25,451 bases of DNA. It comes from a virus. Shown here one piece after another: positions 18,786 through 23,662 of the stretch (the stretch's first letter is position 1; every line of letters starts with the position of its first letter). The notes under the pieces are model-generated. The model ran no database searches, had not been told where the DNA came from, and saw only the letters and a list, made by a program, of their open reading frames with translations. The stretch spans positions 1 to 25,451 of the IMG/VR virus record IMGVR_UViG_3300021964_000469; one strand, written 5' to 3'. A program made the translations under genes and the position numbers.

Positions 18786-18830
18786 TGCCATGGTGGGGTG
18801 TCGCAGTTTTTACCCCCCTACCCCTCACCC
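18786..18830. other. G-rich tract and CCATGG dyad at the end of the small terminase gene
   Basis: On the minus strand, starting within the end of the small terminase gene, there are G-runs of 3, 4 and 6 (positions 18828-18830, 18821-18824 and 18813-18818). They are followed by a short dyad around CCATGG with flanking CCCC/GGGG (18782-18798). In AT-rich DNA this is unusual. It could fold as a G-quadruplex or hairpin. There is no T-run, so it is not a classical terminator. Confidence 0.4.
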
Positions 18831-19195
18831 AAGTCTATGGAAACACGAATCTCCCCTGCGTGGAGATGCATTTGCTTGTCGGGAGCTTTAAAGCCTGCCC
18901 TGTCCAGTATGTCTTTGCTAGCTTCTAACTGCACGTACTCACTCTTAGCTCCCTTGGCCAATGCCAATACCCTCTGGCTGGCTATCGTAGCAGATAATCC
19001 TATAGTCTCTGTTATCCGTGACATCATATACTGTTGTACATGTGGCAGTCTCAAAGTCTTACTGGCTGTCACTCTACCACTCTCACCATCTGCATATCCT
19101 GCTATCTTAGATGCTTCTTTAACACTACATCCATTTGCTACGATGGTATCAACTAAGGCCATCTGTTTCTTCGTTAACTTACGTTCTGTTATCAT
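18818..19195 (-). CDS. Terminase small subunit
   Basis: 125 residues from the ATG at 19195, chosen over an upstream in-frame codon at 19246 because the extra 17 residues are encoded by low-complexity G-runs. The family pattern is visible: LTKKQMALVDTIVANGCSVKEASKIAGYA (residues 7-35) is a helix-turn-helix of the small-terminase type. Then comes a conserved line with L-R-L-P-H-V, and a helical body ending near ILDRAGFKAP. It would recognise the packaging site and present DNA to the large subunit. The large subunit lies five small genes downstream, which is more distant than usual. SD-like AGGGGG precedes the start. Confidence 0.8.
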   Translation of the reverse strand: MITERKLTKKQMALVDTIVANGCSVKEASKIAGYADGESGRVTASKTLRLPHVQQYMMSRITETIGLSATIASQRVLALAKGAKSEYVQLEASKDILDRAGFKAPDKQMHLHAGEIRVSIDLGEG

Positions 19196-19223: not shown

Positions 19224-19250
19224 TTTATCACATCACAAGAAACCATCTGT

Positions 19251-19261
19251 CAATGCACAAA
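19251..19261 (-). promoter_or_regulatory. Late-element site 5 (TTTGTGCATTG)
   Basis: Repeated 11-mer about 56 bases upstream of the small terminase start, oriented with late transcription. It sits next to a tandem repeat containing the related string TGTGCAT (19279-19300). This makes it the most elaborate of the five sites and a candidate for the first late promoter. Confidence 0.5.
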
Positions 19262-19278
19262 TACTCTTCTCATTCTCA

Positions 19279-19300
19279 CTCATGCACATCTCATGCACAT
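19279..19300. repeat. Tandem 11-bp repeat CTCATGCACAT x2
   Basis: Two perfect, directly adjoining copies of CTCATGCACAT. On the minus strand each has TGTGCAT, also found in the late element at 19251-19261, so three TGTGCAT sites lie within 50 bases upstream of the small terminase gene. This spacing is typical of a regulator-binding cluster, but the protein is unknown. Confidence 0.6.
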
Positions 19301-19445
19301 ACACCCTCTTTGCTTAACTTTGCATTTGGTCTTGTGCGAGTCCATTGATAAATCAATGCTTTACTAAAGTTGTTTACGTTCTTCTCGTCACCTTTGTTTA
19401 GCACCAGTGCAATCAACTCCATTTTATGTCTATCACAACTTTATG
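19301..19445. other. Divergent control region, left half
   Basis: No gene is supported here. It contains the short dyad ATTGAT-AA-ATCAAT (19344-19357) and several AT-rich stretches that could serve as promoter parts for the rightward genes, but no pair of hexamers with good spacing stands out. TTGTGCGAG on the plus strand near 19333 resembles the late element but departs from it after seven bases. Confidence 0.4.
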
Positions 19446-19489
19446 TACTTACAAGGGTAAACGTTGCGAGTTCCTCGCCCTTGTAAGTA
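19446..19489 (+). repeat. Two-tier hairpin I
   Basis: A 12-base perfect inverted repeat: TACTTACAAGGG (19446-19457) pairs with CCCTTGTAAGTA (19478-19489). Inside it a second stem GCGAG/CTCGC (19466-19470 and 19474-19478) with a three-base loop sits against the inner side. A folded RNA would have an asymmetric 5' bulge (TAAACGTT). As DNA it could extrude a cruciform. It lies about 120-160 bases before the first rightward gene. Confidence 0.75.
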
Positions 19490-19527
19490 TAAGTCGACAC
19501 TTCTCAAGTGAAAGTGGAGTCGACTTA
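19490..19527 (+). repeat. Two-tier hairpin II
   Basis: It directly adjoins hairpin I. Arms TAAGTCGAC (19490-19498) and GTCGACTTA (19519-19527) are perfect complements. Inside, CACTT (19498-19502) can pair with either of two AAGTG copies (19506-19510 or 19512-19516), so two alternative folds are possible. Alternative pairing of this type can be regulatory. Confidence 0.7.
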
Positions 19528-19568
19528 CCTAAGTAGGCAGAAAGCCGTGATCGTCATAATGTCATAAA

Positions 19569-19587
19569 GATTGCCATGGTGGCAGTC
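19569..19587 (+). repeat. Hairpin III just before the first rightward ribosome site
   Basis: GATTGCC (19569-19575) pairs with GGCAGTC (19581-19587) across a five-base loop, with one G-U pair. It lies nine bases upstream of the AAAGGAG ribosome site of the 165-residue gene, so it could protect the messenger's end or affect translation. Confidence 0.55.
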
Positions 19588-19607
19588 TAAAACAAAGGAG
19601 ACTTAAG

Positions 19608-20105
19608 ATGAAGAACTTAGTAAAAAACTTTAGTAAAGAATTCGATGCGAATTATGAAGACTCTACAAGACCAAACACAAAGTACGCAAAGAGATACTCA
19701 CTTCTCTCAATACTCGACCAATTACACTGGGTCATCTCAACAAAAGAAAAAGATGCTAGTAAATTCCATGCTGAGGCTGAAGAAATGATTTCTACTTCTG
19801 CAGGTGATACTTGGGAAGAGATTAAATCCGGCAAGGTTCAGCTTGTCATGGGTAAGATCGGTGAAACTATCGGTGCATCACACTTCGATGAGTACGCATT
19901 TACCAACAAACTTGAACAACAAGTTACATGCAACCTTGAAGCTAACATGCATAGAGAAATATATAACTTCTTCAAAGATGTATTAAGAACATGTTGCAAT
20001 GAGGAATATCAACCAAAGGCATTACGTAAAGCTAATGTAATGCAAAACCAAAAAGGACAAAACATAATCCTTGATGGTTTCCAAAAAACTCTTAAGTCAG
20101 CTTAA
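19608..20105 (+). CDS. Conserved phage protein, function unknown (first rightward gene)
   Basis: 165 residues, mixed charge and largely helical by composition, with no motif I recognise. Notable segments are KYAKRYSLLSILDQLHWVI, a Glu-rich helix around residues 45-60 and MGKIGETIGASHFDEYAF. Two cysteines sit side by side near residue 130. It has an excellent ribosome site (AAAGGAG) and is bounded by the structured leader upstream and a strong terminator downstream. It is therefore a single-gene transcript, as expected for an abundant early product such as a host-takeover or DNA-binding protein. That role is inference only. Confidence 0.8.
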   Translation: MKNLVKNFSKEFDANYEDSTRPNTKYAKRYSLLSILDQLHWVISTKEKDASKFHAEAEEMISTSAGDTWEEIKSGKVQLVMGKIGETIGASHFDEYAFTNKLEQQVTCNLEANMHREIYNFFKDVLRTCCNEEYQPKALRKANVMQNQKGQNIILDGFQKTLKSA

Positions 20106-20141
20106 GAGTTAAGGGAGCTTCGGCTCCCTTTTCTTTAACTC
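20106..20141 (+). terminator. Rho-independent terminator with UUCG loop
   Basis: The stem AAGGGAGC-TTCG-GCTCCCTT (20111-20130) is followed by TTCTTT. An outer pair GAGTTAA/TTAACTC extends it. This is a textbook terminator, starting at the stop codon of the 165-residue gene. By symmetry the outer stem could also act on the other strand. Confidence 0.9.
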
Positions 20142-22293: not shown

Positions 22294-22357
22294 TATATGC
22301 TTGCACATGTTGCATATATGCAGTAGTTCTGTATGTATGGTATTGTGCAAGTATATA
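22294..22357. promoter_or_regulatory. Operator-like dyad before the helix-turn-helix genes
   Basis: TATATGCTTGCACA (22294-22307) and TGTGCAAGTATATA (22344-22357) are inverted copies (13 of 14 matching), 50 bases apart, about five DNA turns. Between them lies the perfect 12-bp palindrome TGCATATATGCA (22311-22322). The first small helix-turn-helix gene starts within this region, so self-control by that protein is likely. DNA looping between the two outer sites is an inference. Confidence 0.55.
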
Positions 22358-22549
22358 CAACAGCTTCAAGACATAGCTTCCAATAATAATGTGCGTCTGA
22401 AAGACATGTTTATTGTAGCAGGTGTGCCTACCAGTACATACTATAGAGCAATGAACGGAATGGATTTAAGATTTGACACAGCACAAAGAATACTCGAAGC
22501 ATTCAGACATGTTCAACTACAGGACAGTGCCAGTTCCCATCAATCCTAA
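22337..22549 (+). CDS. Small helix-turn-helix protein (possible regulator)
   Basis: 70 residues from the ATG at 22337. The segment LKDMFIVAGVPTSTYYRAMNG (about 22-42) fits a helix-turn-helix: a helix, the turn at AGVP, and a recognition helix with STYYRAMNG, followed by DLRFDTAQRILEAF as the closing helix. It is about Cro size and lies within an operator-like dyad. An earlier in-frame TTG (22301) would add 12 residues, but neither start has a good ribosome site. Its end overlaps the next gene by 41 bases. A role as early repressor or switch protein is inferred. Confidence 0.6.
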   Translation: MVLCKYIQQLQDIASNNNVRLKDMFIVAGVPTSTYYRAMNGMDLRFDTAQRILEAFRHVQLQDSASSHQS

Positions 22550-22739
22550 TTGGAAAGAATTGGTAAGCTCACTAGTAGAAAAGAGAAACAAAATGCAACT
22601 GTCACAAGAAGCATTAGCCTACAAAATTGGATGTGCCGATAGCCTAATAGGTAAGTGGGAAAGATATGAACGCTTGCCTTCAGGCTTTATGCTTTTAGAT
22701 TGGATCGAAGCTTTAGATTGTAAGCTAAAAGTTCAATGA
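22509..22739 (+). CDS. Cro/C1-type (XRE) helix-turn-helix protein
   Basis: 76 residues from the ATG at 22509 (an earlier TTG at 22473 would add 12 residues lying within the previous gene). The XRE pattern is clear: KRNKMQLSQEALAYKIGCADSLIGKWERYERLPS (residues about 25-58), with Q32 and the recognition helix around DSLIGKWER. The tail DWIEALDCKLKVQ completes the bundle. It lies directly after another small helix-turn-helix gene and would act as a transcription regulator of early genes. The stop overlaps the next ATG (ATGA). Confidence 0.75.
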   Translation: MFNYRTVPVPINPNWKELVSSLVEKRNKMQLSQEALAYKIGCADSLIGKWERYERLPSGFMLLDWIEALDCKLKVQ

Positions 22740-23176: not shown

Positions 23177-23662
23177 ATGTCCTTTAAAAATATCCAAGGT
23201 ATCTTGGATGCTGATGTTGGTGATCCAGTAGCCAAGCTTGTGCTATTGACAATCAATCATTATGCTAATCAAGATACCATGATTGCTTATCCATCCATCA
23301 GTACAATTGCAAACAAGTCAGGTCTAAGTGAACGAACTGTAATTCGTAAGCTTGAATACCTAGTAAATAAAAAATTTTTGATTCGCAAACGTCAGGGTAA
23401 GAATCAAGTAAACATATATAGAGTACGGAAGTGTCAGCCTGTCACCGTGGAAGTGACAGAGTGTCACTCAGAGGGTGACACAGTGACACACGAACCTACT
23501 AATAACATACTATCTAACAGAGAGAAGGGCAATGCAGTTACAATTAAGCCACAACAAAAGACAAGTAGCTTTAAAAAGTCTAACAACTACAACTCCAAAA
23601 GAGATCGAGCAAAAAGTTCTTTCTTCTTTGGCATCAATTCTAAACTACGAGGAAGTACTTAA
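23177..23662 (+). CDS. Winged-helix replication initiator-like protein
   Basis: 161 residues. The N-terminal ~85 residues form a winged helix of the phage replication-protein type: DPVAKLVLLTINHYANQ (16-32), YPSISTIANKSGLSERTVIRKLEYL (38-62), then a wing with KFLIRKRQGKNQVNIYRV (66-83). The segment after it (QPVTVEVTECHSEGDTVTH, 87-105) is encoded by an array of TGTCAC/GTGACA repeats, as in initiators whose origin lies inside their gene (lambda O is the classic case). The tail is basic and possibly disordered. It overlaps the next gene by 131 bases. The ribosome site is weak. Confidence 0.7.
   Translation: MSFKNIQGILDADVGDPVAKLVLLTINHYANQDTMIAYPSISTIANKSGLSERTVIRKLEYLVNKKFLIRKRQGKNQVNIYRVRKCQPVTVEVTECHSEGDTVTHEPTNNILSNREKGNAVTIKPQQKTSSFKKSNNYNSKRDRAKSSFFFGINSKLRGST
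23431..23489. repeat. TGTCAC/GTGACA iterons inside the initiator gene (possible origin)
   Basis: Six copies of the same hexamer core occur in 59 bases: GTGTCA (23431), TGTCAC (23440), GTGACA (23453), GTGTCAC (23461), GTGACAC (23475) and GTGACAC (23483). Several form dyads, such as GTGTCAC with GTGACAC seven bases apart (23461-23481). The position, straight after the winged helix in the initiator's own gene, is where lambdoid origins lie. Binding by the initiator is inferred. Confidence 0.65.

Follow-up and report, generated by a model that had tools for sequence, protein, structure and literature searches.

Marine podophages of the kind described here carry, over the start of their first early gene, a long inverted repeat that appears to be conserved in position and structure and free in sequence; among the claims that follow, this is the one best supported by our sequence comparisons. 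We identified it in the window, the whole stretch of 25,451 nucleotides analysed (IMG/VR virus record IMGVR_UViG_3300021964_000469, positions 1 to 25,451). Self-comparison revealed an imperfect palindrome of 388 bp at 19306-19693, centred at about 19499.5 (self-match on the minus strand, E 2.7e-14), which is the strongest in the window and the only one of its kind there. Six inverted repeats (I1, I2, I3, I6, I9 and I15) fall on a single antidiagonal, and 19306-19415 approximates the reverse complement of 19569-19693. The predicted fold of the palindrome has a z score of -13.3 (minus strand) or -11.4 (plus strand) as RNA, and of -15.6 as DNA. The right arm (19528-19693, plus strand) comprises the leader of the early gene, its Shine-Dalgarno sequence (SD), its ATG and about the first 28 codons, and alignment of the two arms shows the left one (19306-19445, minus strand) to be a diverged inverted copy of the same stretch, from leader and ribosome site through the ATG to the first codons. 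On the minus strand the left arm contains AAACAAAGGTGAC...AACTTTAGTAAAGC...ACAAGACCAAATGCAAAG, a degenerate copy of the early-gene start that has lost the ATG and holds no usable start codon. Left-arm copies contain no real open reading frame (the copy in phage Hodr, described below, would read MIRNFRR and then stop).

The first-pass annotation of this DNA had pointed to three adjoining hairpins ahead of the early gene, and all three are present, with perfect or near-perfect stems. Hairpin 1 (19446-19489) has a 12-bp stem (19446-19457/19478-19489, 12 of 12 paired) and hairpin 2 (19490-19527) a 9-bp stem (19490-19498/19519-19527, 9 of 9 paired); they abut with no gap between them and form the apex of the palindrome. 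Hairpin 3 (19568-19575/19581-19588), with eight pairs of which one is U-G, is a side branch in the right arm. The original observation was right yet too modest, since the hairpins that it described make up the apex and a single side branch of a far larger palindrome. Its impression of much more structure here than elsewhere was borne out: the predicted fold of the 142-nt piece (-47.4 kcal/mol) beats those of all 357 other sampled windows (median -23.9), and 19440-19600 has a folding z score of -4.7. The runner-up (-46.0, at 22295) belongs to a separate palindrome at 22294-22357 that overlaps the beginning of an HTH gene (22301-22549), itself overlapped by a second one (22473-22739), and could be an operator. 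The two possible pairings proposed for the second hairpin hold in a wider form. Positions 19402-19414 pair at long range with 19569-19581, in competition with hairpin 3, and since the bases of hairpin 3 are also used in the long-range fold, the two are alternatives that never form at once.

The early gene (19608-20105, plus strand) encodes a protein of 165 aa and has its SD, AAAGGAG (19594-19600, plus strand), inside the right arm. An intrinsic terminator (20111-20130, plus strand), found at the same place in most relatives, lies directly behind it, so that the gene forms a separate unit. The protein gave no PHROG or Pfam match, and its AlphaFold model, a helical hairpin with a mean pLDDT of 76, offered no functional clue. 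The divergent neighbour, the gene for the terminase small subunit (TerS; 18818-19195, minus strand), probably starts at 19195 and not at the first ATG, at 19246, as judged from the alignment of its relatives. Its late promoter (19225-19253, minus strand) consists of TTGACA at 19253-19248 and a weak -10 near 19230-19225, outside the palindrome. In most relatives TTGACA-N17/18-TATACT or GATAGT is kept, in the outer arm or in the DNA that separates the palindrome from TerS; because of this placement we rejected a terminase-leader RNA. Upstream of the terminase -35, at 19279-19300 and 19253-19262, the window also carries a direct repeat (two copies of CTCATGCACAT, plus ATGCACAAAT). These TGTGCATGAG-like sites are conserved in relatives and are candidate sites for a late activator.

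The 165-aa gene is present in ten IMG/VR contigs, of which one (L002) is divergent enough to be informative. In L002, 99% of the cells of the three hairpins are paired and five pairs are changed on both sides, compared with 0-1 in slid controls, a count that rests on no more than four distinct rows and, in essence, a single divergent lineage. Two of these compensatory pairs fall in hairpin 1, one in hairpin 2 and two in hairpin 3, which shows in addition a change from U-G to U-A. The long pairing has nine double-sided changes in L002, as against 0-3 when slid. A second contig, L003, is 96-100% identical to the window over the palindrome and 78-85% in the flanks, and the conserved block stops at the palindrome limits; the left arm alone is 96% identical, with flanks at 82-85%. 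Synonymous differences between window and L003 affect 1 of 28 codons in the right arm and 31-36 of 137 downstream. A recombined cassette would look alike, so the pattern in L003 is by itself no proof of selection. The first-pass annotation had made its proposal depend on covariation or conservation in relatives, and both were found.

A search with the terminase small subunit gave 80 loci, at 59 of which (window and Hodr included) the early gene, identified automatically, was judged; a palindrome was called when its score exceeded the best of 40 shuffles. One was present at 50 of the 59 loci, 31 of these 50 being sequence-distinct, and its centre lay 80-175 nt upstream of the early ATG in all but one of the 50. 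The early genes of the relatives form one diverged family with a common C-terminal Y-x-P region, which makes the locus the same across relatives. Pairing reaches a plateau of 75-86% from -70 to +50, and the SD is paired in 88-100% across lineages. At a minority of loci the right arm ends 26-47 nt short of the ATG, so that cover of the start codon is not universal. Comparison of the roughly 31 sequence-distinct loci shows that it is pairing, rather than sequence, that is conserved.

Among the strong cases, anything from 181 to 732 nt separates the palindrome centre from the terminase gene. The palindrome thus tracks the early ATG and not the terminase, so that a function tied to the early gene is favoured over packaging. 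A packaging or genome-end element, either a concatemer-junction hairpin as in T7 or a pac site beside the terminase, is the least probable of the explanations we considered, although the palindrome adjoins the TerS gene and entry would begin with the early gene. In HTVC010P (NC_020481) the record opens inside the palindrome, which divides the element between the record ends. In T7 the same scan gave 39649-39686 as the strongest palindrome, close to the right end. The T7 concatemer-junction hairpin also resembles our element in being a palindrome near the terminase-early junction of a T7-like podophage. However, it is far shorter (score 36, compared with 162-300 here) and lies in non-coding DNA. 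Further, complete-length contigs overlap at arbitrary places and give no sign of a genome end at the palindrome. The GC skew flips at 19.5 kb, where it coincides with the switch of coding strand and hence proves nothing about an origin. Neither an origin nor a packaging role, both of which the first-pass annotation had raised, found support.

Podoviruses of this kind, such as Hodr and HTVC010P, infect SAR11 and other abundant marine bacteria. The nearest isolate by terminase, Pelagibacter phage EXVC031P Hodr (68%), has in its divergent gap a 694-bp palindrome of its own (E 4e-24), with AAAGGAGGAAAATGATCAGAAACTTCCGCAGATAA in its left arm mimicking AAAGGAGGATAAAATGAAGAAACTTACTACCGCAGTAAA of the early gene. 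We found no close DNA similarity between this gap and the window palindrome, the matches being one weak stretch of 12 nt and the similarity of the terminase genes. The Hodr record (OQ414635) bears the locus tags of another phage name, EXVC032PBaldr. HTVC010P shows the same geometry ahead of gp64 (score 80), with the centre 107 nt upstream of the annotated ATG and 149 nt from an SD-preceded ATG. Among HTVC010P-type isolates the palindrome is clear in HTVC010P, at background level in Skadi and Greip, and absent in several others. Scanning T7, Pmp11 and MEP301 revealed no palindrome of this kind, and BcepC6B has only an unrelated one of 98 bp; this near-perfect palindrome occupies positions 1-98 of NC_005887, at the record start, and could represent an end structure or result from assembly. 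A scan of genome contigs for prophages in cultured bacteria returned only three loci, all of them on MAG contigs. L140 (PAAM01000029.1, 33,550 bp), which has been binned in a Rhodobiaceae MAG, is apparently the complete genome of such a phage, and two further contigs of this phage type sit in Euryarchaeota MAGs.

The arms of the palindrome change in concert. Between L051 and L052, double changes at partner positions number 31, compared with 5.2 expected under independence, and 23 of them restore the pair; between L033 and L034 there are six (1.0 expected), five of which restore it. Concerted changes reach into the terminase promoter spacer (L031, L035, L036), and in Hodr-like phages this spacer differs between phages yet matches the facing early-gene codons within each. 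Such change can come from selection or from template-switch repair, which covariation by itself cannot separate. The main rival explanation is accordingly a palindrome driven by mutation, in which an inverted duplication originating at the early-gene end would be kept by hairpin-templated (template-switch) repair during replication and would have no function, selection just keeping the early ribosome site open. That template switching can generate hairpin arms and maintain them is documented (PMC8794818, PMC7202029, PMC8604942), and in quasi-palindromes homogenised in this way the arms likewise change in concert (PMC8794818, PMC8604942). The low overall G-U content agrees with this explanation, and A-C mismatches on the mRNA strand around the SD and ATG would fit an escape of the mRNA from pairing. 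Nevertheless, we regard it as rather unlikely. The element keeps a fixed place at one gene across unrelated sequences and shows a strand-specific polarity (see below), neither of which is expected from mutation alone; mismatches of other types are fewer, not more, in the start region; and internal loops stand at identical places in both members of a phage pair. Palindromes are, besides, usually unstable. A recent inverted duplication was rejected, since the arm mismatches are saturated and not transition-biased (32% are of transition type, as in random sequence).

G-U mismatches are tolerated in RNA and are less harmful than A-C in DNA, so that the strand on which they fall is informative. In the core, from -70 to +50, the ratio of G-U on the leftward to G-U on the rightward strand is 57:14 (16 lineages, the loci being not fully independent). 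After control for base composition the core rates are about 0.06 leftward and 0.02 rightward, and the bias is absent beyond the core. The leader part gives 92:26 for the leftward (late) over the early strand, and the polarity peaks at -20 to +15, with 22:1. Near the start codon, in other words, the mismatches that are tolerated are A-C on the mRNA strand, that is, G-U on the other strand, while other mismatches are rarer in the start region than outside it. Polarity is missing or reversed in L052, L055, L074 and Hodr. Since the bias is local, a uniform mutational bias does not explain it. It seems to reflect either pairing selected on the leftward (antisense/template) strand or an early mRNA kept unpaired at its start, and the smaller number of other mismatches in the core favours leftward-strand pairing over an open mRNA.

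We tentatively favour, as the explanation of these observations, an extended control element, complementary to itself, that spans the first early gene's start and works as an RNA (or ssDNA) device; the palindrome is probably an unrecognised mode of early-gene control. The molecule in which the pairing acts would be single-stranded and of the leftward strand, most probably an RNA. The right half of this RNA would be antisense to the early ribosome site and start codon, and its left half a decoy copy that locks the antisense half in a hairpin. Release or cleavage of the hairpin would then determine the strength of early-gene translation, for instance in a shut-off late in infection. The candidate leftward RNA is inferred from the polarity: no promoter for it was found, and neither leftward promoters nor leftward terminators were enriched at the palindrome. 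A fuller version, which is speculative and rather unlikely to hold as a whole, is a class of phage control element in which a giant antisense-strand hairpin switches the first early gene. The gene would carry just upstream an inverted non-coding decoy of its own leader, ribosome site and first codons, co-evolving in pairing and freely diverging in sequence, and the specificity between co-infecting relatives may be set by the hypervariable apex.

Polarity also bears on whether the palindrome belongs to the early mRNA. In that case transcription would enter from the left of the palindrome, and the left arm, transcribed together with the gene, would be an antisense element that either masks the ribosome site or is excised and acts in trans, in the manner of P1 c4 or P4 CI. 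The left arm does lie upstream of the SD and ATG, in the same direction and complementary to them; its presence raises the predicted pairing of the early-gene start region from 0.49 to 0.69; and the early gene, which has a terminator to itself, stands as a separate unit. The c4 RNAs of P1 and P7 and the CI RNA of P4 are short antisense RNAs with short complementarity and a known promoter. Our element resembles them in being antisense to the start of a phage gene, just upstream and in the direction of its target, so that a complement of the ribosome site is found upstream on the same strand. Unlike them, it has 110-570 nt of complementarity and a hypervariable sequence, and its G-U polarity favours the strand opposite to the transcribed (early) one, the wrong way for pairing in the mRNA. 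The left edge has no enriched sigma-70 promoter either. An early-mRNA leader is thus unlikely. Of the structured leader RNA suggested in the first-pass annotation, the anchoring to the early gene stands, whereas a simple self-hiding leader is disfavoured by the mismatches at the start codon, which are A-C on the mRNA strand.

The strand in which pairing is kept is also the template strand of the early gene, on which an ssDNA element could act as a Frpo-like promoter, a priming site or a single-strand origin. The DNA z score given above is in keeping with this, as is the lack of an ordinary early promoter at the palindrome centre. The Frpo/ssi ssDNA promoters of conjugative plasmids are likewise long folded non-coding elements of the template strand, ahead of the first-expressed genes (PMC9849209, PMC11541004), and the polarity found here does assign the fold to the template strand of the gene that follows. 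However, Frpo has recognisable -35 and -10 boxes and a conserved sequence, and does not enter the gene (PMC9849209, PMC11541004), whereas in our element there is no conservation of boxes or of sequence, and the stem runs on over the SD, the ATG and codons, which a promoter would not need. No -35/-10 pair is enriched in the apex, and the promoters that the stem would rebuild at the centre are at background. An O-like initiator gene at 23177-23662 suggests that a lambda-type origin may lie there instead. We know of no ssDNA stage in these dsDNA phages, and consider this explanation improbable, below the early-mRNA leader and above packaging.

We also compared the element with known RNA families and signals. 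Rfam 15 returned nothing at gathering or relaxed thresholds (the best sub-threshold hit was ToxI, E 1.6), and a tRNA/tmRNA search found none. A type III toxin-antitoxin system was rejected, as there is no tandem repeat family ahead of a ToxN-like gene and the 165-aa protein has no Pfam match. A terminator or attenuator was rejected too: the palindromes of 24 loci gave just two isolated late-strand matches (L091, L093), and the terminator search in the window gave one weak 5-pair match on the minus strand, at hairpin 3. The put RNA antiterminators of HK022 are short and sequence-specific and act in the transcribed strand. They resemble the apex in having two adjoining stem-loops near an early transcription start, but here there is no conserved sequence and no Rfam match, and put-like antitermination was rejected on the absence of conserved sequence. 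No 8-mer was enriched in the apex as a shared protein-binding motif, and sigma-70 promoters were not enriched at the centre or edges of the palindrome (mean percentile at the centre 0.59, like background). Our literature searches found no description of such an element. To our knowledge, very little has been described of gene regulation in such podoviruses. A structure found repeatedly at the start of one gene, over about 31 distinct loci with no shared sequence, would escape sequence-based RNA searches; it hints at a regulatory or replication mechanism, which the cultured isolates Hodr and HTVC010P make testable.

Several palindromes among the relatives have features of their own. Those upstream of TerS in L051, L052, L053, L139 and L140 exceed 1.1 kb (score 400-730) and extend over 184-429 nt of the early gene. 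Between L087 and L093, and between L091 and L101/L104, the apex has been swapped in phages with near-identical early genes, yet it has remained a palindrome. The window, L091 and L033 share a hairpin resembling hairpin 1 (CAAGGGTAAA...GCCCTTG).
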